64,000 nucleotides of DNA from assembly GCA_037355855.1 (NCBI GenBank), contig CM074767.1, positions 248,001 to 312,000 on the forward strand. Direction: 5' to 3'. The notes under the pieces were generated by a model. It was given only the letters and a program-made list of their open reading frames with translations, was not told where the DNA came from and did no database searches. The stretch comes from Pseudo-nitzschia pungens. Taxonomy: Eukaryota; Bacillariophyta; Bacillariophyceae; Bacillariales; Bacillariaceae. The stretch's first letter is position 1. Each line of letters begins with the position of its first letter. This document shows, piece by piece, positions 29,528 to 50,994 of this stretch. Both the position numbers and the translations under genes were made by a program.

Positions 29528-32500
29528 TCAGTTCCCGCCGGTGGGCTCATCATCAGTGGGGACATCCTCTTTCTCTGAAGGCGTTTCGGCGGTAGCCTTG
29601 GGAGTGAATACGACTGGTTTTGGTGTGAACGTCGCAATTTTTGGGGTTCCCGCAGCACCACCTCTCATTGGTGACATCATGCCTGGTGGTGCTGCTCCCG
29701 GGGGCATCATCATGCCACCCATCATTGGCGGCATCATTCCTCCGCCAGGAGGTCCTCCTCCCATTGGTTTCTTCTTACCTGGGATGCGGCTCGGAGGGGG
29801 TGCCATCATGGAGGACAAAGCATCCTTGGGTTCCTCGTTCTTTACTTCTTCCTTCTTAATGACAGTCGGAGGAGGTGCTATAGGTTTAGCAAGTTCGGCT
29901 GGGTCATCTCCTGGGAAAACCCAACCTAGAAAGTCAACGTGAATTCCCGAATAATGATTAATTTATGGCGAAAGAGTGAGATATAGTGTTGAACTTTCGT
30001 GAGCGAAATATGTCTGAAACAAATGGACAATCATTGAAAAAAGGAAAAAACATTTCACTTACGCTTCAATTCTTTGTCGAAATACGGTTGCTCTTCGTTC
30101 TCCGGCAAGTAACATTCCTTGGCATTGGGATTCAGCTTTTTGATTAACCATGATTTCATGCCACCGAACGTGCCACTTCCAGGAGCCTGCTTTGGTGTGC
30201 CACTCGATGCCGGAGCTTTCTTCGGCGTTTCCTTGGCCTTCTCTTTCCCTTTTCCAGTCATCACAGGAGGGGCTGTGGATGGAGCTTCCGCGGGTCGCTC
30301 CTTTCTCGATGGTTGTGATTTCGGTGGAGGAGTCGAATCAGCAATAGTTTTTGATAACTGTTGGTTCCGCGAAGGCTGTTCAACCATCACATTGTTGGTT
30401 GCCAACGGTTTCTTCTCATATTTTGGCTGAAGCTTTGGTTTCGCTTCTGGTGCTGGTGCTGCTAGCTTATTCTCTTCTTTCGGTGCATTCTTCAAAGTAT
30501 TTGTGGATTGTTCGTTGATTCGAGGCATCTGTCGGTCCGTTTCGTTCGCTGTAGCACTCTCTCTATTGACCCTTTCGTCAAGAGAGTAATCGGAACGATC
30601 CATAAGATTTGTTTTTGCAGTCATGAATGTCTCGTCAAGTGCGGCGTCCTTACTTTTATTCTGCATAAGACTTCGACCATTGTCCAGGACAGCAGATGGC
30701 TGCCCTATCTTCTTCTCTGGTCCAAGCCTGCCATTCATCATTCCGCTGTGAGCTTTGTCAACGGTAATTTCAATATGACCTCCATTGAGCACCTGCTCAC
30801 TGTACTTTGATTTGGGTTCACCCTTGGAGAGCAACCGTTCTTCGATCTGTCTGTAAGCGAGTTCAAAGGCAACGTCATCGTCAAACATCTGTCTAACCGA
30901 TACCTTTGTGATGCCACTTGCCGCTGTTCTTGCGGTGTCTAGCGAAATTTGTATACTTTGAACAAATTCTTGTGCCTTGATAACCTCTCCAATATCAGCA
31001 AGCAGCATTCCATAAATCAATTTAAATGGTTGGAAAGCTGCGAAATAGGCATCTCGATTGCCAAGGCGCTTTGCCCATTCATATGCTTCAGTTCGTTCAA
31101 AAGCGATTAGAGATTCCTCCGTCGACAAGGTGCAGTTTAGAGAATCAGCATGATCGCAACCCAAGAGTGAAACCCGCGTTTCATTGTCAGTCGGGCTCGT
31201 GATGGGGTAACCACAAACCATATAGCAAAAGTGCGCTTCCTTTATATTGCCAATCTCAACAAGTCGATCTCCTAGAGACAAGACAACTTTATCCCAGCCA
31301 AAGGTTCGATTGTTGATGATAGCTGCCAAATGACTCTTCCAATTTTCCCTTAACTCTTCTGCTTTTACGCCCCAGTTACTTGAATTCCTATTTGACGGGG
31401 ATTCGATCTTCCCGGAAAAGAGCATTGTAGTTGTGTACATTGGCGAATCAGTTCGGAACTTGCTTCGAGCATATTGTTGCGCCACGTTTTTGTACGTCTC
31501 GGAATCACACATACTTGCAACTAGCAGTGCAGTGGCGAAGTCCCCAATGGCCATGGCCTCTTCAATAGCATTTTCTCGGTCTCCACGAATGAGTAGATCT
31601 TGAACGCGTACGATCGAATCCTTACCTTCCGCTTCATCATCGACTTCTTGAAAAATACAGAAATCAATAAATGCTAGTGAGGTTATTGATTCCGTCCGTG
31701 ATGCATAATTTAAATATCAAATCTTTCTCACTTACTTTTGTCCTCGATCACGATATCGTTCTTCGATGTTGTCCTATGACTTGAATAGTCGGGGTCATGA
31801 AGCAGTAGCTTCACGATTGCAGCTTCCGGGCCTGATTTATCCACTACTCCGTAATCACTTCGAAGCCTACCCTTCGATTGCACAACAATAGCGATGAGCT
31901 GCCACAAAATATCATTCGATCGGGCCTTGTGCTTGATGTATTCTATCACAACTGACTCATCGCATAGAGTGAAAGGTCCAGAGACTCCGAATCTACTTCT
32001 CTCGTCTGCTATGTCAGAGATATTTCGGGATTCACCATGTGATACAGATTGTGACTCATGTTCAATCTTCTGATTCTCAGTGGAGTCGCCTTCAACGGTA
32101 CTGCTTGGATCGGTGTTCGGATCAGGGCGATCCCACGAAGTCTCATCTGTGCTTTCATTCCAATAAAAGATCTTTCCGCTTGCCTGATCAATACTTTCAA
32201 CCCAACCAGGAGGGAGAGGTTTCAGCGATTCCCTGGAAACATTCGAAACATCTTCGACAATATCGACAGAGTCATTTTCCGTTAGGGTATCATGGACATC
32301 TACCCAGTCGTCACGCATATTCCCATCATCATTTTTATGCGGTTCACCAGTGCCTTCATCGTCGATGTGCTTAGATGGCTTTTCCCAGGTTGTCTCCTGT
32401 GTTTCATTATTATACCAATAGCAATTACCAGAACTAGAATCGATTACCTCCACCCAGCCGTCAAGAAGATCGTTCGTGTCATTTTTAATCGGCTCTTCAC

Positions 32501-35500
32501 CTTCATTAGGGGTCATGACGTAGTCAGGCTCGGATTGCATACCTGACTTCGCTTCTGTTTCTACCAGCTGTTTTGGGACTGACTTTGAGAGAGACTTTTC
32601 GGGTCTGTCCCAGCTTGTTTTCTCGGTGTTTACATTATAATAGTAAGTGTCCCCACTAGCAGGATCAGTTGATTCTACCCAGCCTTCAGGAAGAGGTGAC
32701 ATGACACTTCCAATCGATTCAGTGTCATTGCCGGCGTGATCATCTTTCTTGACCTCATCGAATGTGAAATCTCCGTTCAATTCTACCAACGTGGAAGATT
32801 CGTTCGAATCGGAAGGTCTCTCCCAACTGACTTCTTCGGTCAAAGTGTTGTAGAAATAAATGCCGCCACTCGAAGGATCCTCAGCTTCGACCCAATAATC
32901 AGGGAGAAGGTCAGAAGGAGGTTGAGTCTCTTTCTCTTCAGCTCCACTGCTATTAATGGAAACGTTCTCCTGGTCTTCGTGGTTGTCGTTGATCTGGACA
33001 GTATCACTTTCAGCATTGTCGTGGAGCAAATCGTCAGGTGTATCCTGTGGTCTGGCCCAACTAGTTTCGCCAGACTCTGCATTGTGATAATACGGCTTTC
33101 CAGTTAAAGGATCTTCCATTTTTCGCCAACCATCAGGCAAAGACAATTCGGCCTCATAAGCCAGATCATTTCTAGCGGAATCAGGTTCTTTGTTCGCATT
33201 TGATAAAATATCCCCTTCCTCTACGACTGTTTCCTCGGTAGAAACAAGAACGTCTTCAGTAAGATCTCCCACAGCATCCAATGGAATGTCCTCTTCCTCG
33301 TCATCTGCAACCAATACTTCGGTTGGTCTATCCCAGCTGGTTTTGCCAGACTCTGCATTGTAGTAGTAGACATTTCCGCTTGATGGGTCCACCATCTCTT
33401 CCCAACCATCTGGCAAAGCATCTTCATCTGCATTTTCATCAGCTTCAAAAACTATTTCTTCTTCCTTCTCGTCTGCAATAAAGTCCTCATCTTCTCCCTT
33501 CTCATCTGTTACAACGTCCTCTTCCTCATCCTCATCAACACCCAGCGTTCCTGTTGGTCTATCCCAGCTAGTTACGCCAGACTCTGCATTGTAGTAGTAG
33601 ACATTTCCGCTTGATGGGTCCACCATCTCTTCCCAACCCTCTGGCAAAGCATCTTCATCTGCATTTTCATCAGCTTCAAAAACTATTTCTTCTTCCTTCT
33701 CATCTGCAATAAAGTCCTCATCTTCTCCCTTCTCATCTGTGACAACGTCCTCTTCCTCATCCTCATCTACACCTCGTGCTTCTGTTGGTCTATCCCAGCT
33801 AGTTTCGCCAGACTCTGCATTGTAGTAGTAGACATTTCCGCTTGATGGGTCCACCATCTCTTCCCAACCATCTGGCAACTCGTCAGAATGCGTAACAATG
33901 TTTTCTTCCCCATCATTTAGGCTCACATCCCCTCCATCTTCTTCACTCTCAGACAGTTTTGGAACGACTGTTTCCTCGGTAGAAACAAGGACGTCTTCAG
34001 TAAGATCTCCCACAGCATCCAATGGAATGTCCTCATCCTCATCCTCATCTACACCTCGTGCTTCTGTTGGTCTATCCCAGCTAGTTTCGCCAGACTCTGC
34101 ATTGTAGTAGTAGACATTTCCGCTTGATGGGTCCACCATCTCTTCCCAACCCTCTGGCAAAGCATCTTCATCTGCATTTTCATCAGCTTCAAAAACTATT
34201 TCTTCTTCCTTCTCGTCTGCAATAAAGTCCTCATCTTCTCCCTTCTCATCTGTGACAACGTCCTCTTCCTCTTCCTCATCCTCGTCATCTGCAACCAATA
34301 CTTCTGTTGGTCTATCCCAGCTAGTTTCGCCAGACTCTGCATTGTAGTAGTAGACTATTTCCGCTTGATGGGTCCACCATCTCTTCCCAACCATCTGGCA
34401 AAACATCTTCCTGAGTACTTTCATCCGCATTTTCATCAGCTTCAAAAACTATTTCTTCTTCCTTCTCATCTGCAATAAAGTCCTCGTCGTCTCCCTTCTC
34501 ATCTGTTACAACGTCCTCTTCCTGTTCCACGTCATCTGCAACCAATACTTCTGTTGGTCTATCCCAGCTAGTTTCGCCAGACTCTGCATTGTAGTAGTAG
34601 ACTATTTCCGCTTGATGGGTCCACCATCTCTTCCCAACCATCTGGCAAAACATCTTCCTGAGTACTTTCATCCGCATTTTCATCAGCTTCAAAAACTATT
34701 TCTTCTTCCTTCTCGTCTGCAATAAAGTCCTCGTCGTCTCCCTTCTCATCTGTTACAACGTCCTCTTCCTGTTCCACGTCATCTGCAACCAATACTTCTG
34801 TTGGTCTATCCCAGCTAGTTTCGCCAGACTCTGCATTGTAGTAGTAGATATTTCTGCTTGATGGGTCCACCATCTCTTCCCAACCATCTGGCAAAGCATT
34901 TTCATCCGAATTTTCATCAGCTTCAAAAACTATTTCTTCTTCCTTCTCGTCTGCAATAAAGTCCTCGTCGTCTCCCTTCTCATCTGTGACAACGTCCTCT
35001 TCCTCATCCTCGTCATCTGCAACCAATACTTCGGTTGGTCTATCCCAGCTGGTTTTGCCAGACTCTGCATTGTAGTAGTAGACATTTCCGCTTGATGGGT
35101 CCACCATCTCTTCCCAACCCTCTGGCAAAGCATCTTCATCCGAATTTTCATCAGCTTCAAAAACTATTTCTTCTTCCTTCTCGTCTGCAATAAAGTCCTC
35201 ATCGTCTCCCTTCTCATCTGTGACAACGTCCTCTTCCTCTTCCTCATCCTCGTCATCTGCAACCAATACTTCTGTTGGTCTATCCCAGCTAGTTACGCCA
35301 GACTCTGCATTGTAGTAGTAGACATTTCCGCTTGATGGGTCCACCATCTCTTCCCAACCATCTGGCAAAGCATCTTCATCTGCATTTTCATCAGCTTCAA
35401 AAACTATTTCTTCTTCCTTCTCATTTGTGGCAATGCCATCTTCTTGCTCTTTGTCATTTGTGGCAATGTCATCATCTTCTTCCATCTCATCTGTGACAAT

Positions 35501-38500
35501 ATCCTCTTCCTCCTCGAGTGCAACTGATACTTCTGTTGGTCTATCCCAGCTAGTTGCGTTAGAACCAGAATTGTAGTAGTAGACATTTCCGCTTGATGGG
35601 TCCACCATCTCTTCCCAACCATCTGGCAAAGCATCTTCCTGAGTACTTTCATCAGCTCCGAAAACAGTTTCTCCCTTCTCATCTGTGACAACGTCATCTT
35701 CCTCTTCCTCCTCATCTTCAACCAATACTTCAGTTGGTCTATCCCAGCTAGTTTTGCCAGACTTTGCATTGTAGTAGTAGATATTTCCACTTGATGGGTC
35801 CACCATCTCTTCCCAGCCATCTGGCAACTCGTCAGAATGCGTAACAATGTTTTCTTCCCCATCATTTAGGCTCACATCCCCTCCATCTTCTTCACTCTCA
35901 GACTGTTCTGGAAAAGGTTGTTCACCTCCGACGTGAGGCATTTCCGGTGATTCTGCCGTTGCTGATGGTCTCTCCCAACATACTGCACCAGATTCACCGT
36001 GGTAATAGTATACCTTACCTCTTGGATCCTCTGCTTCCACCCATCCATCTGGTAAGTCGTCAACCTCACTTTCGTTGTCCATATCATCTAGGTTCACGTG
36101 GACACTGTCTCCTTCACTCTCAGACTGTTCTGGAACAGGTTCTTCACCTCCGACGTGAGGCAGTTCCGCTGATTCTGCCTTCGCAGATGGCCTCTCCCAA
36201 CTTACTACACCAGATTCACCGTGGTAGTAGTATACCTCACCTCTATTTGGATCCTCTGCTTCCACCCATCCATCCGGCAAGTCGTCAACCTCACTTTCGT
36301 TGCTTTTACTCGAAGTACTGATCGATTCTGTGCAGACATGTTCTGCTTCCTCGTTGGCTTTTTCCGGAGCATTTACTTCTGGCATTTCCCAACTCACTTC
36401 TTGTGTTTTGACATTGTAGAAATACTTATTTCCGCTCGTGGGGTCCGCCGTTTCTACCCAATCTTCGGGGAGTTCCGCCGTTTCTACCTCAGTGTCGTCT
36501 TGTCTGTCCTCGATCCTTTCTTTTGGCTCAAACGTGCCTTCCGCATCTGAATCCTCCATTTCGGGTGATGGCATCGCTTGCTCTTCTGAAATCTCGGATT
36601 CTTCGGATTCGGGTTGCACCTCGCTATCGCCAACTTCGTCACCGTCAGCAACAGCATGCGCCGATGATGGTTTCTCCCAGGATGACTCTCCACTCGAGGT
36701 GTTGTAGTAATACACATGACCACTAGATTCGTCTTCAATTTCTACCCAGCCATTGGGAAGATCGTCATCCATTCCTTCGTCATCGTCTGCGACTTCTTCC
36801 CGGGTTTCTCCTTGGGATAAATCCGAGAGAGCGCTTGCCGCGAATGCAGCAGGTGTGTCATCAGCCGTTTCGTCTGATGCATCGGTCGAACATACAGGTC
36901 TCGTAAAGGTAACGTCATTGGTCAATTTATTCTCGTAGTAGGCTACTTTTCCTGTCGTTGTATCCAAAACCGCAACCCAGCCTTCTGGAAGCGAAGACGG
37001 GGCTGCTTCATCTGGTTCATTTGCTTTCTCGATTTCAATCTGGGTAGGTTCAGCAGCAATCTCCTCCACTCCAGAAGCCTTTTCGTCTGGAATTTCATTC
37101 TCTTCAACGGGCACAGAATCAGGCCTTTCCCATGTTGTTGCGCCCGTCTTGGAATTATAAAAATAGGACTTTCCACTCGACGGATCAGTGGATTCAATCC
37201 AATCATCGCCGTTGTCCTCGCCATCCTCCACTGCTTCTTCACCCTCGTGTTCGGGGGTCGTAGTTTTCTGCGTAGCCGGATCGGTAATCTCTTCCCCTTC
37301 CGGAGACAATTCATCACTCGCGGCCTCTTCATTCGGAATATCTAGCTCGGTTTCATTGCCCTCGGCATCTGGAGCCGACTCGCTTACGTCCGCGACTCCT
37401 TCTTCGCTCTTCTCTTTGGATGCAACGCCCGGTCGTTCCCACGATACATCTCCGGTCAGACTATTGTAGTAGTAGACTTCCTCGGTCTGGGGATCGAAAG
37501 ATTCGATCCAGCCATCGGGCAGTCGTTCTATGTCATCTGGTTCGTCGGATTCATCGGGCTCATCTTGGTTCGATGCTTCTGGGACTGCTGCCTGCTCCAC
37601 CTCATCTGTATCGGTAACTTCGGCCACTTCTTCTTCTTCCGCCGATGGAGAGGAAGACGAGGGTCTATCCCAGGTCACATTACCAGTCCGACTATCGTAG
37701 TAGTAGAGCTGTTTAGTTTTCGGATCGATTGATTCGATCCATCCCTCGGGAAGGGGTTCCAGGTCGCTTTCGTTCGCAGAAACCTCCGGTTCGGGATCGT
37801 AATTGCTGATATCAAACGTTTCTTCTTCGGTAGGGGGGGTTGCTTCGACGGCTGCAGTCTCATCCTCGTGATCAAATTCCGCTCCGTCTTCGGCGGTCTC
37901 TTCGGTGGCAGAAGGCCGTTCCCAGCTGACAGTCCCAGATTCGCTGTGGTAGAAATAACTATTCCCGCTCGAGGGATCTGTGGCTTCGATCCATCCGTCG
38001 GGAAGAACTTCCGGAACAACCTGCTCTTCCGGGGGTTCGATTTGGGTCTCCGGCATGTCGCCCTCAAAGGTGCTACTGGACGGTTCGTTGTCAGCTTGGG
38101 CTGTGTGCTCGGGTTCTGCGGGCAAAGGATCTTCGTCCGCATTCGAATGTTCGGTATCTTCGGGAACCATAGAATTTGGTCGATCCCACGATGTTTCTCC
38201 TGTCAAAAAGTTGTAATAATACGTCCTCCCGCTGGTAGGATCTACCGATTCGGTCCAGTCTTCCGGTAAAGCATCGAGGTCATCGTGATCTTGCGCATCG
38301 AATGGCAATCCGGATTCGTTTTCTTCTTGCGTAGCATCTGCAGGCAACGAGTCGCCGTCGTCGTTTTCCGTGGCTACTTCCGGAGTGGAATCCTCCGCTG
38401 GAACGTCAGCGGTTTCCTCTGCGGATCCATCCGCCGCATCCGTTGGTCGATCCCAGCTGACTTCTCTCGTAACCGTATTGTAAAAGTAGGTGCTTCCGCT

Positions 38501-41500
38501 CGCGGGATCGTCGATCTCCTCCCAGTTTTCGGCAAGACCAGCAGAAGGTGCTGTCTCCGTCTCCACAACGGCTTCGGGCTCGGCGACCGCTTCCGTTGGA
38601 AGATCCAGCTCTTCCGTTGCCACGGCCGCTTCTTCTTCTTCTGCTACTACTACTTGCGGCTGCTCGACCTTGCTCCTCGTTTACGGCGGGGTGATTCATC
38701 TCGGGCGGCCGATCCCAGCTGCTTTCTCCCGTAGCCTCGTTGTAATAAAACGGCTGACCACTGGACGAATCGTGCATTTCGACCCATCCTCCCTCTGGGT
38801 TGGAAGTGGCACTGTCGTGCGATGGCGCTGCTTCGACGGCAGTGTCAGTGGCATCATTTGGTTCCGTTTCCGTTTCGGCCGCTGGCTCTTCCTCCTCCGT
38901 GGCATCAGCCGTATCAGTCACTTTCGGGTTCTGCTGCCTCGTTCGTCTCCGCTCTACTTCCGGCCCCGGGTGGGAATTGGGGGCGCGTCCAACTTACAAC
39001 ATTAGTGGCGGTGTTGTAATAGTACTCCCATCCGCTGTCCGGATCGGATTTGGTCACCCAGTGCTCGGGAAGAGCATCGGATGACTCATTCGATGGAGGT
39101 TCTTCGACGGCTGCTGCTGCGTCCAACGCTGGGGTGTCCTCTTCGGTTTCGGTGTCCGCGGCATCACCGCCTACGGCCTCGTCGTTTCCATCCGGTTGTG
39201 ATTCGAATTCCGCATTCAGGGCATCCAGCGTTGCATCGATCGATGGCACTTCCGCTGCCGCGTCCACAGAATCTTCCTCGGCGGGCTGTTCCACGGTCTC
39301 CGGTTGGTCCAGAGTGCTATTGTCTGCCCCCGGACGTTCCCAAGCCGTTTCTCCCGTGACGGAATTGTAGTAATATATTTTCTGGCTGGATGGATCCGTG
39401 GCCTCCTCCCATCCATTTGGTAGATCTTCGCCATCCGTTGGTTTTTCTTGCGCTGCTGCTGCTGCTGTTGCGTCTTCCATCGGAATGTCGGTAGCATCCG
39501 ATTCGGCAGGAGGCGCATCCAATGCAGTATCGTCCGCAGAGAGAACAGCATTTTCGTCGGCGAATTGTTCCTCGGTCTCCGGTTGGTCCGGAGCGCCATC
39601 GACGGTTGGGGTTGGAGCTGTTGGACGTTCCCAAGCGGTTTGTCCAGTGACGGAATTGTAGTAATACGTGTATTGGGTGCTTGGATTCGTAATCTCCTCC
39701 CATCCATCCGGCAGGTCATTGCTGCTACCGGTGGCTTCCGGTGGCTCCCCGGATGCTACTTCCGCTGGCTCGGCGGCAGGCGCATCCAACGCAGTATCGT
39801 CCGCAGCGGCAACTCGCGGAACGTCTTCTACCGAATCGGTCTTTGAGACGGCGGCTTCTGGTTCGTCGGGGGTGCCATCGATGGTTGGGGTTGGAGCCGT
39901 GGGACGTTCCCAAACGGTTTGTCCCGTGACGGAATTGTAGTAGTACGGCATTTGGGTGGTTGGATCCAGTGTCTCTTCCCATCCTTCCGGGAGATCCGTG
40001 CTGCTACCGGTCGCTTCCATCGGTGCGCTTGCGGCTTCTGCTTCGGCTCCTGCGGATGGTGCTTCATCCTCCACGAAACGATCCACCGCATCCGACTCGG
40101 CGGGGGCCGCATCGAGAGTAGCAGCGACAGCAGTGTCCGTCTCCAAGGGAGTTGTGGTAGCAGTAGCACTAGCAGCAGTAGCAGCCTCCATCTCGGGGGA
40201 GGCTTCGGGAGACTCCGTCCCGGTGCTGCTGTTTGCGGCCGAACTCGTTGTCGTTGTATTTGTCGTCGTCGCGATCGTTGCGGGTCGGTCCCAGGCAGTT
40301 TCTCCCGTAATGGAGTTGTAGAAATACACATTCCCGGTGGTTGGATCGGTGGCCTCGGCCCATCCCTCGGGCATGGCCGGTTCGTTCGGTGGCGGCTTCT
40401 CCTTGTCCTGCGGGGGAGCAGGCAACCCATGATCCATGGGCGGAGTGGCCAGGATGCTTTCCGGTTCGGATGCGGGTGCGGTTATGGTTTCGGGTTTGGT
40501 TTCGACCAAAGCGCTCGCGGCTGCTGGGGTTGCAACCTCCGGAGCCGAAGGAGTGGGCTCCGCGGCAACCGGCGGAACGGAGGGAGCCTCCTGGGTGGTG
40601 ATTCCCGCCGGCGTGGCAGTCACTGCTGCGGTCGCTGTTGCAGCCGCTGGGCTTGTCCCCAACGATTCGGGTTTGGATCGGGATCTGGCACTCGCCCTCG
40701 CGCTCGATCTGGGCGTCGCAGTCGTCGTCGTCGTCGTCGTCGTCGTGGTCTTCGCCCTCGCTCTCGCGGGGGTCCGGGAGCGCGACTTGCGGGGTGTCGG
40801 CAGCTTGAAGCGGGATCGGGTCCGGCCCGGGGAGGCCGACGCTCGCAGCGGGGGAGGTGCCCGGAGCCGCCGCCGGCCCGGGGGCTGCTCCGCCGCTGCC
40901 GGTCCCGGGGCTGCCGCTGCCGCAGGGGACGGTGCCGATGCCGCTGCCGACGCTGGTGATGCCGCTGCCGACGCCGGTGGTTCGAAAGCAGACACCGCTC
41001 GGGGCTGGGTGCGGACGGGAGAGGCCGGCGGGGTGACGCGGCGCATCGGGGAGGACGCCGCCGCCGCCGGCAACCCGTTGGTTTTTTCGTCGCCTCCGCC
41101 ATCGATTGTTTCCGGGGGCTTTGCGGTCGTTGCCGTTGCCATTACTCCTTCGGGCGTCGGAGGCGGCCGCGCAAACAGGGCGGCCGACGGAACGGGCGTC
41201 TGCGTCGGGGGAGCGAATCCAAACACGGTCTTGGGCGGAAGCGACGGGGTCCGGGCATCATCAGCAGCCGGCTGCGAAACCCCAAAAGGAGGATCCGAAG
41301 GGTTCGGCGTCGACGGAGGCGGTTGAACGGCCGGGGGAGGGAATTGCGGTTGTTGGTGGTGGTGATTCGTCGTGGGCGTCGGTGGCGCGTTCGCAAACAC
41401 GTTGCCGTTGCTCGCGGTGGAAGGAGGCGGAAACCGGTTCGGCGTCGGAGGCGCGGAAGGTAGCTTGGGAGGTCCAACCGCCGCCCGCGTCGGTGTCGGG

Positions 41501-42372
41501 GGCGGCTGCGAAAAAACGTCCTTGCTGCTGCTGTTGTTGTTGTTGTTGTTGTTGTTGTTGCTGTTCACGCTGCCATTCATGCTGCCGTTGATTGGCTTGG
41601 CAATGGTGGGAGTCTGCGGAGCCGACGACGACGATGGGGGAAGGCCGTTGTGGTTTCGGCTGCTCGGACCGGGGGTCGGAGTCGGTGGTCTCGCAAACAG
41701 GTCCGCTGCCGCGGCCGCAAGTGTCGGGGGCGGCGTTGGTGCCCTCGCGGTGGCAGCCGTGTTGGCCCGCGGCATCGGTGGCCAAACTCCCCCCGGAGAC
41801 GGCGGCGGCAGGAATCCCCCGCTTCCCGCGGCAACCGGTGCCCGAAGCGACGCGTTGCTCGCATTCGTGTTCTCCACGGGAGTCGGGGGCCGATCGAACA
41901 ACGCAGCGGCTTCCGAGGGAGGCGGAGCGTTCACATCAACTTCCGTCAGGTCTCCGTCGTCGTCGTCGTCGTCGTCCAGCATGGAAGCGAATTGTTCGAT
42001 CGGTGCGGGGGGTGGTGGAGGAGCGAATTGGGGTTTGGGTTTGGCTGCTGCTGGCAGATTCTGTTGCAGCTGTTGCTGTTGCTGCTGTGGTGGCGGAGGA
42101 GGCGCAAAGGCCGGACCGGATTGGGCCAGGGGTCTCGCCGCGCTAAAGAGCATCGAAGCCGCCGAGGTGACCATGTTGACGGTCATGCCCAATCCTCCTC
42201 CTTCATCGTCGTCGTCGCTGCTGTCGTGCTCGTGTTCCTGCTCGTGTCCGGGCATTGGCGGGGGAGGCGGGCGAAATCCCAAGCCTCCCGGTAGCGGTGG
42301 TGGTTGCGCCGGGTGGCTTCCATCCCCGGGCGGAGGCGGCGGAGGGGGTCCCCCACCAAATTGTGACCACAT
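29528..42372 (-). CDS. SEC16: giant Sec16-like protein with about 33 WW domains, four +1 frame breaks
   Basis: Three exons (42372-31736, 31646-30063, 29925-29528), introns 89 and 137 nt with GTAAGTG donors and AAG/TAG acceptors. The joined length minus four extra bases is 4,205 codons. Residues 1-660 are Pro-rich with Gln and Asn runs. About 33 WW domains (LPxGW...YYYN...SWDRP) span ~665-3420, separated by acidic linkers. From ~3460 comes the Sec16 central/ACE1 module (TLCDESVVIEYIKHKA, LLIRGDRENAIEEAMAIGDF, AYEWAKRLGNRDAYF), then a Pro/Met-rich tail. Sec16 scaffolds COPII coat assembly at ER exit sites; the WW array would bind Pro-rich partners, possibly its own N-terminus. Extra bases: ~38917-38922, 38668-38669, 34603 and 34356. 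The last two sit in a duplicated unit. The WW at ~36905-36980 has Phe in place of its second Trp. One gene is inferred from continuous WW periodicity across all breaks. Confidence 0.85.
34354..34847 (-). repeat. recent 247-bp tandem duplication inside the WW array
   Basis: 34354-34600 and 34601-34847 differ by a single base by eye. Each unit spans one WW-plus-acidic-linker module of 82 codons. The extra T (plus strand) after GTAGTAGAC is present at 34356 and at 34603, but not in the next copy out at about 34849, which reads GTAGTAGATATTTC. Confidence 0.85.
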
Positions 42373-46256: not shown

Positions 46257-47839
46257 TTACGAAAGAAGAGAGTCGAGACTGTCGGAAACATCGGCGAGAG
46301 GGTCTGAAGACTCGGCCGGGGCATCTCCGTTGAGGTCATCCCCGAGACCCTCCAACGAATCACCGAGTCCGAGGACAATGTCTCGTGCGGCACTCTCTCG
46401 AATCTTGCGGTCTTGTTCCATCTTGGCGTGGTACTTCTCGGCGGATTCCTCGGCCATATCGAAGACCATAGCGGGGTCCTTGAGCATGTCACCGGGGTTG
46501 GGCTCGATGGTCTTGGTGGAAAGAGCGATGCGTCCGTTGACCTTGTCGTGGTCAATGATCATACACTTGACGGCCATGCCTGGTTGGAGAACCTGTTCCA
46601 AGTCCTCGATGCGGTCGTACGAAATTTGAGAAATGTGCAAGAGACCGGACATTCCACCGACCTCGATAAAGGCTCCGTAAGGCTTGAGGGCCTGGACAAC
46701 ACCGTCGACCAAATCTCCGCGGGAAAGGTCGGCCATTTGGGTTTCGACAACGGCCTTTCGGTTGGAGACGACCAATTTGTTGTTTTCTTGGTTGACCTCC
46801 AAGAATTTGAGTGGAAGAACCTGTCCGATCAAGTCGTCGGTGGCCATCTTTCCGGCCAAATGGGATCCGGGAAGGAAGGCACGGAGTCCCTCGACCAAGC
46901 AGATGGCTCCTCCACGGTTGACACTAACAACCTCGGCCTCGAGGATGGCATCTTCGGCTTGCATCTTCAGGACGGTTTCCCAGGCCGATCGGTATTGGAT
47001 TCTTCGGATGGAAACCAAGAGTTGTCCGTTCTCGTCCTCGTCGGAGATGATCTGGAAGTCATAGTCTTCGTTGAGGTTGACCAAGTCGTCGACGGTGGAT
47101 CCAATGGGTTGGATAAGGGCGGCTTCGGCTTCGGGCAAGAAGGCGGAGGCCTTGGCGCCAATGTCAACAATAACACCCTTGGCTCCGTATTCGATGCACT
47201 GTCCCTTGACGATGGAGTTTCGTTCGAAAGAATACGAAGTCTCAGGCGACGGCGGCGGCGAATTCATCGTAGTCGAAGGAGATCGCCTCAATGTCGTCAT
47301 CTTGGACGGGCTTTTGGAATCCCTTGTAGTTCTTCTTCAAGCGATCGAATCGGGTGGGCTGAGCGACGGGAGCCTCGGTGGCTGGGGCATCCAACGTGGC
47401 CGTGTTCAAGGCCGTTCTGTTACGAAGCGTTGCAGTTGTGTCGCGTTTGTTCGTTATCGTGATTGTCGCGTGGTCGTGTTTCCGTCGGCGATGCGTTTCA
47501 TTCCAACGAAAAAGCCAGCAGTATTTGCCACAACGTGGTCATCGTAACACAGGAAACGCCATGGTGAAACCAAAGCAAAGCAATCACAGGGTGATGGATG
47601 GAAGAAGGGAGGGTGAGTTTTCTAGAAAGGAATTTTTTCAGTATGTTTTCTACGAGAGACTGACGTATTTGAACGAATAACGGACAGACGTCCCGTGCAA
47701 CTACGTAGTAAAATTCGTCGCTCATGCTGATGTGTGTCAATTCTTTCTCGCCATCGTACCTGGTGTTGGGTCCCGAAGCAGGCGAGAAAGCAGTGGCGCT
47801 CGCCGCGAATAATGTGAATGCTGCTGCCGAATATTTCAT
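46257..47839 (-). CDS. rps1: plastid 30S ribosomal protein S1, one +1 frame break
   Basis: Two exons: 47839-47760 and 47416-46257, separated by a 343-nt intron (CAG|GTACGA donor, AACAG acceptor; phase fits the Arg codon AG|A). With one extra base removed it has 412 codons. Exon 1 encodes a signal peptide with the textbook diatom plastid motif FAASATAFSPA (cleavage before Phe18). Three S1 RNA-binding repeats follow: VKGQCIEYGAKGVIVDIG..SAFLP, AEVVSVNRGGAICLVEGLRAFLPGSHL and VDGVVQALKPYGAFIEVGGMSGLLH. This is the size and layout of plastid/cyanobacterial S1, which helps load mRNA on the 30S subunit. Near 47242-47246 the upstream frame ends at GCC TGA and the S1 frame starts one base later (…AVA-ETSYSF…). 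An essential gene with one extra base points to an assembly error. Acidic C-terminus. Confidence 0.93.
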
Positions 47840-50629: not shown

Positions 50630-50635
50630 AAAAAA
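50630..50635 (-). terminator. Pol III T6 terminator of the permuted tRNA gene
   Basis: Six consecutive T on the minus strand beginning four bases after the last exon base of the 5' half. This shows that the 5' half is the downstream end of the transcript. Confidence 0.75.
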
Positions 50636-50638
50636 CAA

Positions 50639-50715
50639 TCGTAGTCAGACGCCTTACCGTTGGGCCAAAGGGTCGTAATAAACCCTCCCGGGAATCGAAC
50701 CCGGAATCTTCTGAT
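50639..50715 (-). tRNA. tRNA-Arg: circularly permuted tRNA-Arg (ACG): 3' half precedes 5' half
   Basis: On the minus strand the 3' half comes first (50715-50680) and the 5' half second (50674-50639), with a 6-nt linker TATTAC (counting the putative discriminator T). Joined as a normal tRNA, all stems close. Acceptor GACCCTT (50674-50668) pairs with GAGGGTT (50687-50681), five Watson-Crick and two G-T pairs. The D arm is GGCCCAACGGTAAGGC (3-bp stem GCC/GGC). Anticodon stem TCTGA (50649-50645) pairs with TCAGA (50714-50710), with loop CTACGAA read across the junction and anticodon ACG at 50642-50640. Variable loop AGATT; T stem CCGGG/CCCGG with loop TTCGATT. Outside the halves, CTAC/GTAG and TTGTTTT/AAGACAA form a relaxed bulge-helix-bulge around the 37/38 junction. 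The discriminator would be U, unusual for Arg. No conventional tRNA can be drawn from either half alone. Confidence 0.87.
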
Positions 50716-50747
50716 ATGCTACTTGTCTTCAATGTGAAAGAAAAAGG

Positions 50748-50754
50748 TTATAAA
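50748..50754 (-). promoter_or_regulatory. TATA-like box upstream of the permuted tRNA
   Basis: TTTATAA-type sequence on the minus strand about 35-40 bases upstream of the 3' half. It is consistent with TATA-assisted Pol III start, needed if the leader carries part of the bulge-helix-bulge. Confidence 0.4.
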
Positions 50755-50994
50755 CCATGGACTTTCATGCCAGATGCGGATTCTGAAATGCATGGGCTTA
50801 TTTGGACACCATCTTATGGCAGATTGGAAACATTCTGTAGGTGTAACCTTACTTTTTGGAGCATAGAAAATAATCTTACTTCGAACGTGGAAAAGTAATG
50901 TCACAAAACATTCGATGGATCCGATCAGATCCAACCCAGGACCCAGAAGCAATACATAAACGCTCCCAAGCAACAAACAAACAAGCACGATCCC

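Follow-up and report, generated by a model that had tools for sequence, protein, structure and literature searches.

Multicopy families of circularly permuted tRNA-Arg(ACG) and tRNA-Cys(GCA) genes in a diatom genome

Introduction

To our knowledge, earlier records of circularly permuted nuclear-type tRNA genes are confined to red algae, green algae, the nucleomorph derived from a green alga and an archaeon. In the green algae Ostreococcus and Micromonas, the type II genes of Maruyama et al. (2010), in the account given in sections of PMC3978253, have reversed halves, a short linker and, with the exception of one O. tauri gene, a junction between positions 37 and 38. Those sections list three to six genes for each alga, with linkers of 11-64 nt; tRNA-Cys(GCA) is permuted in three of four species, and no tRNA-Arg(ACG) is among the genes listed there. 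For Cyanidioschyzon merolae (Soma et al., 2007), the same sections describe a TATA-like element within 50 bp upstream, a T stretch downstream, a bulge-helix-bulge at the junction and four junction types, with the TATA-like element found before ordinary and permuted genes alike (PMC3978253). The nucleomorph of Bigelowiella natans, a relict green-algal nucleus, carries permuted tRNA-Ser genes with a 37/38 junction and a 5-nt linker (PMC3978253, same sections). In the green alga Auxenochlorella, permuted genes were found since the ordinary tRNA scan was incomplete, according to the relevant part of PMC12636532.

The locus analysed here lies in a 64-kb stretch of DNA (the window), taken from an assembly of 66.9 Mb in 28 contigs. 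It has the 37/38 junction, reversed halves and short linker of the Ostreococcus and Micromonas genes; unlike them, it belongs to a diatom, in which eight loci were found for each of two tRNAs, with linkers of 5-8 nt. With C. merolae it shares the TATA-like element and the T stretch, whereas the junction is at 37/38, the TATA precedes mainly permuted genes and, of the bulge-helix-bulge, the central helix is supported and the outer helix is not general. The junction and the 5-nt linker of the arginine copies recur in the B. natans genes, which differ in that they encode a serine tRNA and reside in a nucleomorph rather than in the host nucleus of an alga whose plastid derives from a red alga. No permuted tRNA gene of a diatom was found in the open PMC full-text literature, among the matches listed.

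That the sequence comes from a diatom, as had been predicted from its letters, is supported by protein identities. The Rubisco large subunit (contig C18) is 94% identical to that of Pleurosigma, 93% to that of Sellaphora and 91% to that of Paralia sulcata, all of them diatoms. For a protein encoded in the window at 46260-47300, identity amounts to 98% with a transcriptome protein listed under no species, 95% with a protein labelled Psemu1 (presumably P. multiseries), 90% with a Pseudo-nitzschia cluster, 82% with Nitzschia inconspicua and 79% with Seminavis robusta. These identities place the genome as that of a diatom close to Pseudo-nitzschia.

Layout of the window locus

The predicted transcript of the minus strand is led by the 3' half of tRNA-Arg(ACG) (50680..50715; positions 38-73, A38 to U73), which comprises the 3' strand of the anticodon stem, the T arm, the 3' strand of the acceptor stem and U73. 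A linker, ATTAC (50675..50679, minus strand), separates it from the 5' half that follows (50639..50674, minus strand; positions 1-37), with the 5' strand of the acceptor stem, the D arm, the 5' strand of the anticodon stem and the anticodon ACG. Direct reading thus confirmed the order given in the original prediction, a T-arm/acceptor half before an acceptor/D-arm/anticodon half. The linker, first given as 6 nt, is corrected to 5 nt: all eight copies of the gene share the T that follows the acceptor stem, and this T is therefore read as position 73.

Four elements flank the halves, all on the minus strand. The leader GTAG (50719..50722) is complementary to CTAC at positions 32-35, with which it would form the central helix of a relaxed bulge-helix-bulge. 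In the predicted fold of the window copy, the leader AAGACAA (50723..50729) and the trailer TTGTTTT (50632..50638) are the 5' and 3' strands of an outer helix. The T6 run said to follow the 5' half and the TATA-like box said to precede the 3' half are both present, as a predicted RNA polymerase III terminator (50630..50635) and as TTATAA, a predicted upstream promoter element (50748..50753).

When the halves are rejoined, the acceptor stem has seven pairs (two of them G-U), the T stem five and the anticodon stem five. The earlier statement that every stem closes holds for these three; the D stem has three pairs and a C13-A22 mismatch. The anticodon loop is CTACGAA and the anticodon ACG, both as predicted, and the cloverleaf carries U8, G18G19, U33, R15:Y48 and TTC, as read from the sequence. 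All seven acceptor pairs are kept in all eight arginine copies. U73 and the G1-U72 pair are unusual for a tRNA-Arg and weigh against the assignment.

Detection by tRNA finders and covariance models

ARAGORN and Rfam missed the permuted gene and reported only three ordinary tRNAs in the 64-kb window; at all eight arginine loci, ARAGORN likewise left the permuted gene uncalled. A covariance model (R2) was trained on 19 tRNAs of the same genome (nuclear, plastid and mitochondrial) that were artificially permuted at 37/38, with tRNA-Arg(ACG) excluded from the training set. The window site scored 62.6 bits with R2 and the eight arginine copies 58.5-62.9 bits, and ordinary nuclear tRNAs misread as permuted scored at most 31.9 bits in the same run as the window site. 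Closely spaced pairs of ordinary tRNA genes reached 38.1 bits with R2, and 49.1 bits for plastid Ile-Ala, so that an R2 score is by itself no proof of permutation. A further model (R1) gave such pairs up to 46.1 bits; it was trained with the arginine tRNA included, so its scores for that tRNA are not independent. At the window site, both inner halves come from one tRNA and the outer halves are missing from the flanks.

The tRNA-Arg(ACG) family

A BLAST search of the window's own assembly located eight tRNA-Arg(ACG) loci on six contigs, two each on C5 and C10 and one each on C6, C7, C9 and C12. At every one of them the 3' half lies upstream of the 5' half on one strand. The permuted gene is a multicopy family and not a single case. 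Among the eight copies, variation within the 72 body columns is confined to positions 20 and 49, which leaves 70 invariant, against none of the five linker columns, each copy having its own 5 nt; the flanks have little in common beyond the leader GTAG, the TATA and the T run. Full conservation begins at A38 and ends at A37 in all copies, in keeping with a 37/38 junction, and TTTT is absent from every linker and body.

Position 20 is U in six copies, C in one and A in the copy at L004. According to the part of PMC8975779 concerned with this position, diatom nuclear tRNA-Arg carries U or C there; a table in the same source also gives A20 for two species. The U20 and C20 copies agree with this published rule and L004 departs from it. 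The L004 copy further lacks a TTTT in the 15 nt that follow position 37 and folds differently, while the copy at L007 has no TATA in the -50..-31 interval.

The original prediction had raised the question of whether the genome holds any ordinary tRNA-Arg(ACG) gene. BLAST with the joined 72-nt tRNA (E up to 10) returned 16 matches, which are the halves of the eight loci, and no contiguous copy. The pattern GGCGTCTGACTACG occurs exactly at eight sites in the genome, every one inside a permuted arginine gene, and its sole one-mismatch site (L088) holds no ARAGORN tRNA. Sites of GGCGTCTGACTACG with mismatches allowed total 88 (79 with two mismatches), against 346 for a reversed-pattern control; the tRNA check covered the exact and one-mismatch sites, 9 of the 88. 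A looser anticodon-arm pattern, TGRCTACGRAYCA, gave seven sites (control four), none of them a tRNA. No ordinary-order tRNA-Arg(ACG) is found by these searches, by which a divergent ordinary copy could be missed. Ordinary-order nuclear genes exist for tRNA-Arg(UCG) and tRNA-Arg(CCU). Under general eukaryotic decoding rules, CGU and CGC codons need tRNA-Arg(ACG); in five Pfam-matching ORFs of the window the two account for 41 of 150 arginine codons, a rough figure since the ORFs are unspliced.

A second permuted family, tRNA-Cys(GCA)

Two B-box patterns were used to survey the genome. The first, GGTTCGAKTCCC, has 199 sites, and sequences around sites drawn from 100 listed held ordinary tRNAs, repeats and non-tRNA sites, with no new permuted gene among those examined. 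For the second, GGTTCGAATCC, with 148 sites of which 100 were listed, 60 sequences outside organelle-like stretches were examined. ARAGORN called 25 ordinary tRNA genes in these, and one sequence gave a strong R2 match (L159, 64.1 bits), a tRNA-Cys(GCA) split at 37/38, with a 6-nt linker, U73 and T5 behind it. This gene was picked up through the tRNA-Leu(CAA) gene in front of it; its own B box deviates from GGTTCGAATCC. Because the surveys reached a portion of the genome's tRNA genes, further permuted species may be present.

BLAST with the L159 tRNA located eight tRNA-Cys(GCA) loci, all in permuted order, with linkers of 6-8 nt, and within the same genome gave no half-only match marking an ordinary tRNA-Cys gene. 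Seven copies score 60.5-64.4 bits with R2; the remaining one, L219, is degenerate and scores 28.9 bits. Two copies stand in tandem (L217). At L159, L214 and L219 the permuted gene lies closely downstream of a tRNA-Leu gene on the same strand, and the two neighbours may form a two-gene transcript. The upstream gene is tRNA-Leu(CAA) by ARAGORN at L159 and was named by resemblance from its 3' part at L214 and L219. No run of four T separates the two genes at L159 and L214; seven T do so at L219, the degenerate copy. In Nitzschia inconspicua, tRNAs for all 20 amino acids were reported, with tRNAscan-SE among the methods (PMC8329260, in part), which hints that permutation of tRNA-Cys may not be general among diatoms.

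Permuted genes were also sought in a collection of viral contigs, where the exact arginine 3' half had no match and two acceptor-hairpin patterns, for cysteine and arginine, had none either. A gapped permuted pattern matched four viral-contig and 15 genome-contig loci. All 19 were rejected, having an ordinary anticodon arm directly upstream and, downstream, either another tRNA or a sequence that resembles an A box by chance.

Promoter and terminator elements

In seven of the eight arginine genes, TATA lies in the interval from -50 to -31 relative to the 3' half, against a background of 2.8% per 20-nt interval and 6.9% in near-upstream sequence. In the same 20-nt interval, 18 of 96 ordinary tRNA genes have TATA (Fisher P 1.5e-4 against 7/8), a contrast that may be overstated because some of the 96 are second members of clusters and perhaps need no promoter of their own. 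Other counts for ordinary genes were 12/71 in a wider interval and 10/25 in another batch. Among the cysteine genes, three have TATA at -38 to -41, three lie behind tRNA-Leu, one is the second tandem copy, and L215 has neither TATA nor a leading tRNA-Leu. In sections of PMC3978253, reversed A and B boxes are proposed to be bypassed through TATA-driven transcription, and the contrast between permuted and ordinary genes fits this proposal.

TTTT within 15 nt after position 37 is found in seven of the eight arginine genes (background 0.07), and a run of at least four T starts 2-7 nt after position 37 in all eight cysteine genes. Ordinary tRNA genes commonly have TTTT within 15 nt as well (44/71 and 20/25).

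Leader pairing and splicing enzymes

The leader motif GTAG occupies -7 to -4 in six of the eight arginine copies, from which it could pair with CTAC 32-35; in L007 and L008, a G at -3 faces C32 instead, and L008 has only two central-helix pairs. Cysteine leaders carry GCAA, GTAA, CAA or GCA, complementary to portions of TTGC. Taking the 15 intact genes of both families and allowing two registers, the leader forms at least three contiguous Watson-Crick pairs with its own loop in 12, compared with 2/15 for the loop of the other family and 7.6% at slid positions; the copies are related, so these counts are not independent trials. Once G-U pairs are counted too, the figures are 14/15 for the own loop, 10/15 for the swapped loop, which makes the swap a weak control, and 18.7% for slid positions. 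A predicted inner helix of the bulge-helix-bulge is thereby supported across copies.

The relaxed bulge-helix-bulge originally predicted for the window is therefore supported as to its CTAC/GTAG helix, whereas the outer helix is real in the window copy and not general. Both leader helices occur in the minimum-energy fold of the window copy (z -2.5). Outer duplexes of cognate leader and trailer were no better than swapped ones at three lengths (P 0.58, 0.07 and 0.28), and hence no general outer helix is claimed. The 32-35 helix appears in the unconstrained minimum-energy fold of three of the eight arginine copies (L001, L002 and L006), and two folded cysteine precursors (z -1.3 and 0.0) were not much more stable than shuffled sequences. 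In six arginine copies the bulge at the 3' cut would be 4 nt, not 3 nt.

Two splicing-endonuclease catalytic domains were detected, one above the Pfam cut-off (L041) and a weak one below it (L042), and the genome has an intron-bearing tRNA-Phe with 11 nt in the anticodon loop; together they make it likely that splicing near 37/38 is in use. A genome search for RtcB ligase gave no match, and one for T4-type ligase (PF09511) gave none, as did the control for that search. Trl1 homologs are present in diatoms, as stated in part of PMC4090602. The intron-bearing gene, tRNA-Phe(GAA) at L004:2790-2875 on the minus strand, adjoins an ordinary tRNA-Glu gene and lies about 1.2 kb from the permuted tRNA-Arg of that locus; the window's own tRNA-Phe is intronless.

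Proposed pathway and alternatives

The reading of the locus as a permuted tRNA-Arg(ACG) gene is upheld overall, with eight permuted loci, no ordinary copy found and a diatom genome. Very probably, the window gene is one of eight diatom-nuclear copies whose transcript would be cut and closed into a circle at 37/38 by tRNA-splicing enzymes; the circle would then be reopened at the 5-nt linker, with RNase Z and RNase P as the probable nucleases. Polymerase III would be recruited via TATA, rather than the inverted A and B boxes, and would make one RNA in the order leader, 3' half, linker, 5' half and trailer; the three cysteine copies closely behind tRNA-Leu may borrow its promoter. Splicing endonuclease would cut off leader and trailer, a ligase would close the circle at 37/38, and RNase P, RNase Z and CCA addition would complete the ends. 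Passage through a circle is suggested by analogy with known permuted tRNAs. We infer that leader and trailer look like what remains at either end of an intron once located at 37/38, since the leader is complementary to the anticodon loop in the manner of an intron end. The genome has ordinary tRNA genes in tandem only 5-6 nt apart (L125 and L097), and the permuted layout would follow if two such neighbours, both with introns, had lost the outer halves.

The halves might instead be joined without a circle, if the linker were first removed by RNase Z and RNase P and the splicing enzymes sealed the halves afterwards, while base pairing in the acceptor and anticodon stems kept them together, much as in split tRNAs. 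The linear precursor already has in full the acceptor stem and the T arm by which these nucleases recognize their substrates, and the linkers are short (5 nt in Arg, 6-8 nt in Cys); circular intermediates were, however, detected for the permuted tRNAs of red and green algae, according to sections of PMC3978253, and we regard this route as unlikely. That the copies are dispersed, untranscribed tRNA-derived pseudogenes, with the cell using another tRNA-Arg(ACG), is less probable still. The degenerate cysteine copy L219 and the unusual arginine copy L004 would suit such an origin; yet 70 of 72 body columns have stayed invariant while linkers and flanks diverged, the placements of TATA and of the T run are each kept in seven of eight arginine copies, and neither BLAST nor the pattern searches found another tRNA-Arg(ACG).

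We give very little credence to the view that two adjacent ordinary genes, or the remains of a tandem pair, merely appear permuted. Close tandems do exist in the genome (Asp-Ala, 5 nt apart, at L125), and plastid Ile-Ala scores 49 bits with R2. Against this, the joined tRNA matches 16 inner halves only, so that no outer halves are left; ARAGORN reports no tRNA at the eight permuted sites; and the halves belong to one tRNA, pair mutually and rejoin as tRNA-Arg(ACG). Least probable of all is a local misassembly, the artefact to which the original prediction was considered vulnerable: the same order recurs with different linkers and flanks at eight arginine and eight cysteine loci, and the eight independent arginine loci, all permuted, effectively rule it out.

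Beyond the window gene, circular permutation probably extends to every nuclear tRNA-Arg(ACG) and tRNA-Cys(GCA) gene of this diatom. Cytosolic reading of CGU/CGC and UGU/UGC codons would then depend wholly on tRNA circularization, transcription would have shifted from internal A and B boxes to an upstream TATA or to read-through from tRNA-Leu, and the permuted forms would have multiplied and dispersed like ordinary tRNA families. With two multicopy permuted families in the host nucleus of a stramenopile, the range of such genes would extend to another major eukaryotic lineage. The permuted state may arise, or be kept, more often than scans reveal, because both ordinary finders used here, ARAGORN and Rfam, miss the window gene; diatom tRNA counts from ordinary scanners may lack the Arg(ACG) and Cys(GCA) species. 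With ordinary and permuted tRNA genes comparable inside one genome, TATA-driven transcription of tRNA independent of A and B boxes becomes directly testable.

Other features of the assembly

Several further observations were made on the assembly. Identical plastid-type tRNAs are repeated in C7:4.80-5.22 Mb, in C5:5.86-5.98 Mb and in C24, with rbcL copies in C7, and other organelle-type tRNAs in C2:7.117-7.157 Mb are read as mitochondrial. The multiple copies of organelle DNA inside large contigs are either assembly concatemers or true insertions. A dispersed repeat with a tRNA-like B box in a conserved context (L094, L100-L105, L111, L113, L145, L149, L151-L153 and L163) is possibly a SINE-like element. 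A satellite of short degenerate units was seen at L146 (C5:134 kb), L147 (C6:5.6 kb) and L148 (C7:4.8 kb), and may be subtelomeric, as two of these sites lie close to the start of a contig. On the minus strand of the window, three long ORFs at 31731-42372 have 10, 15 and 5 WW-domain matches and are maybe one large repetitive gene. Finally, tRNA-Met(CAT) and tRNA-Leu(UAG) form a close pair at four loci (L079, L081, L084 and L085).
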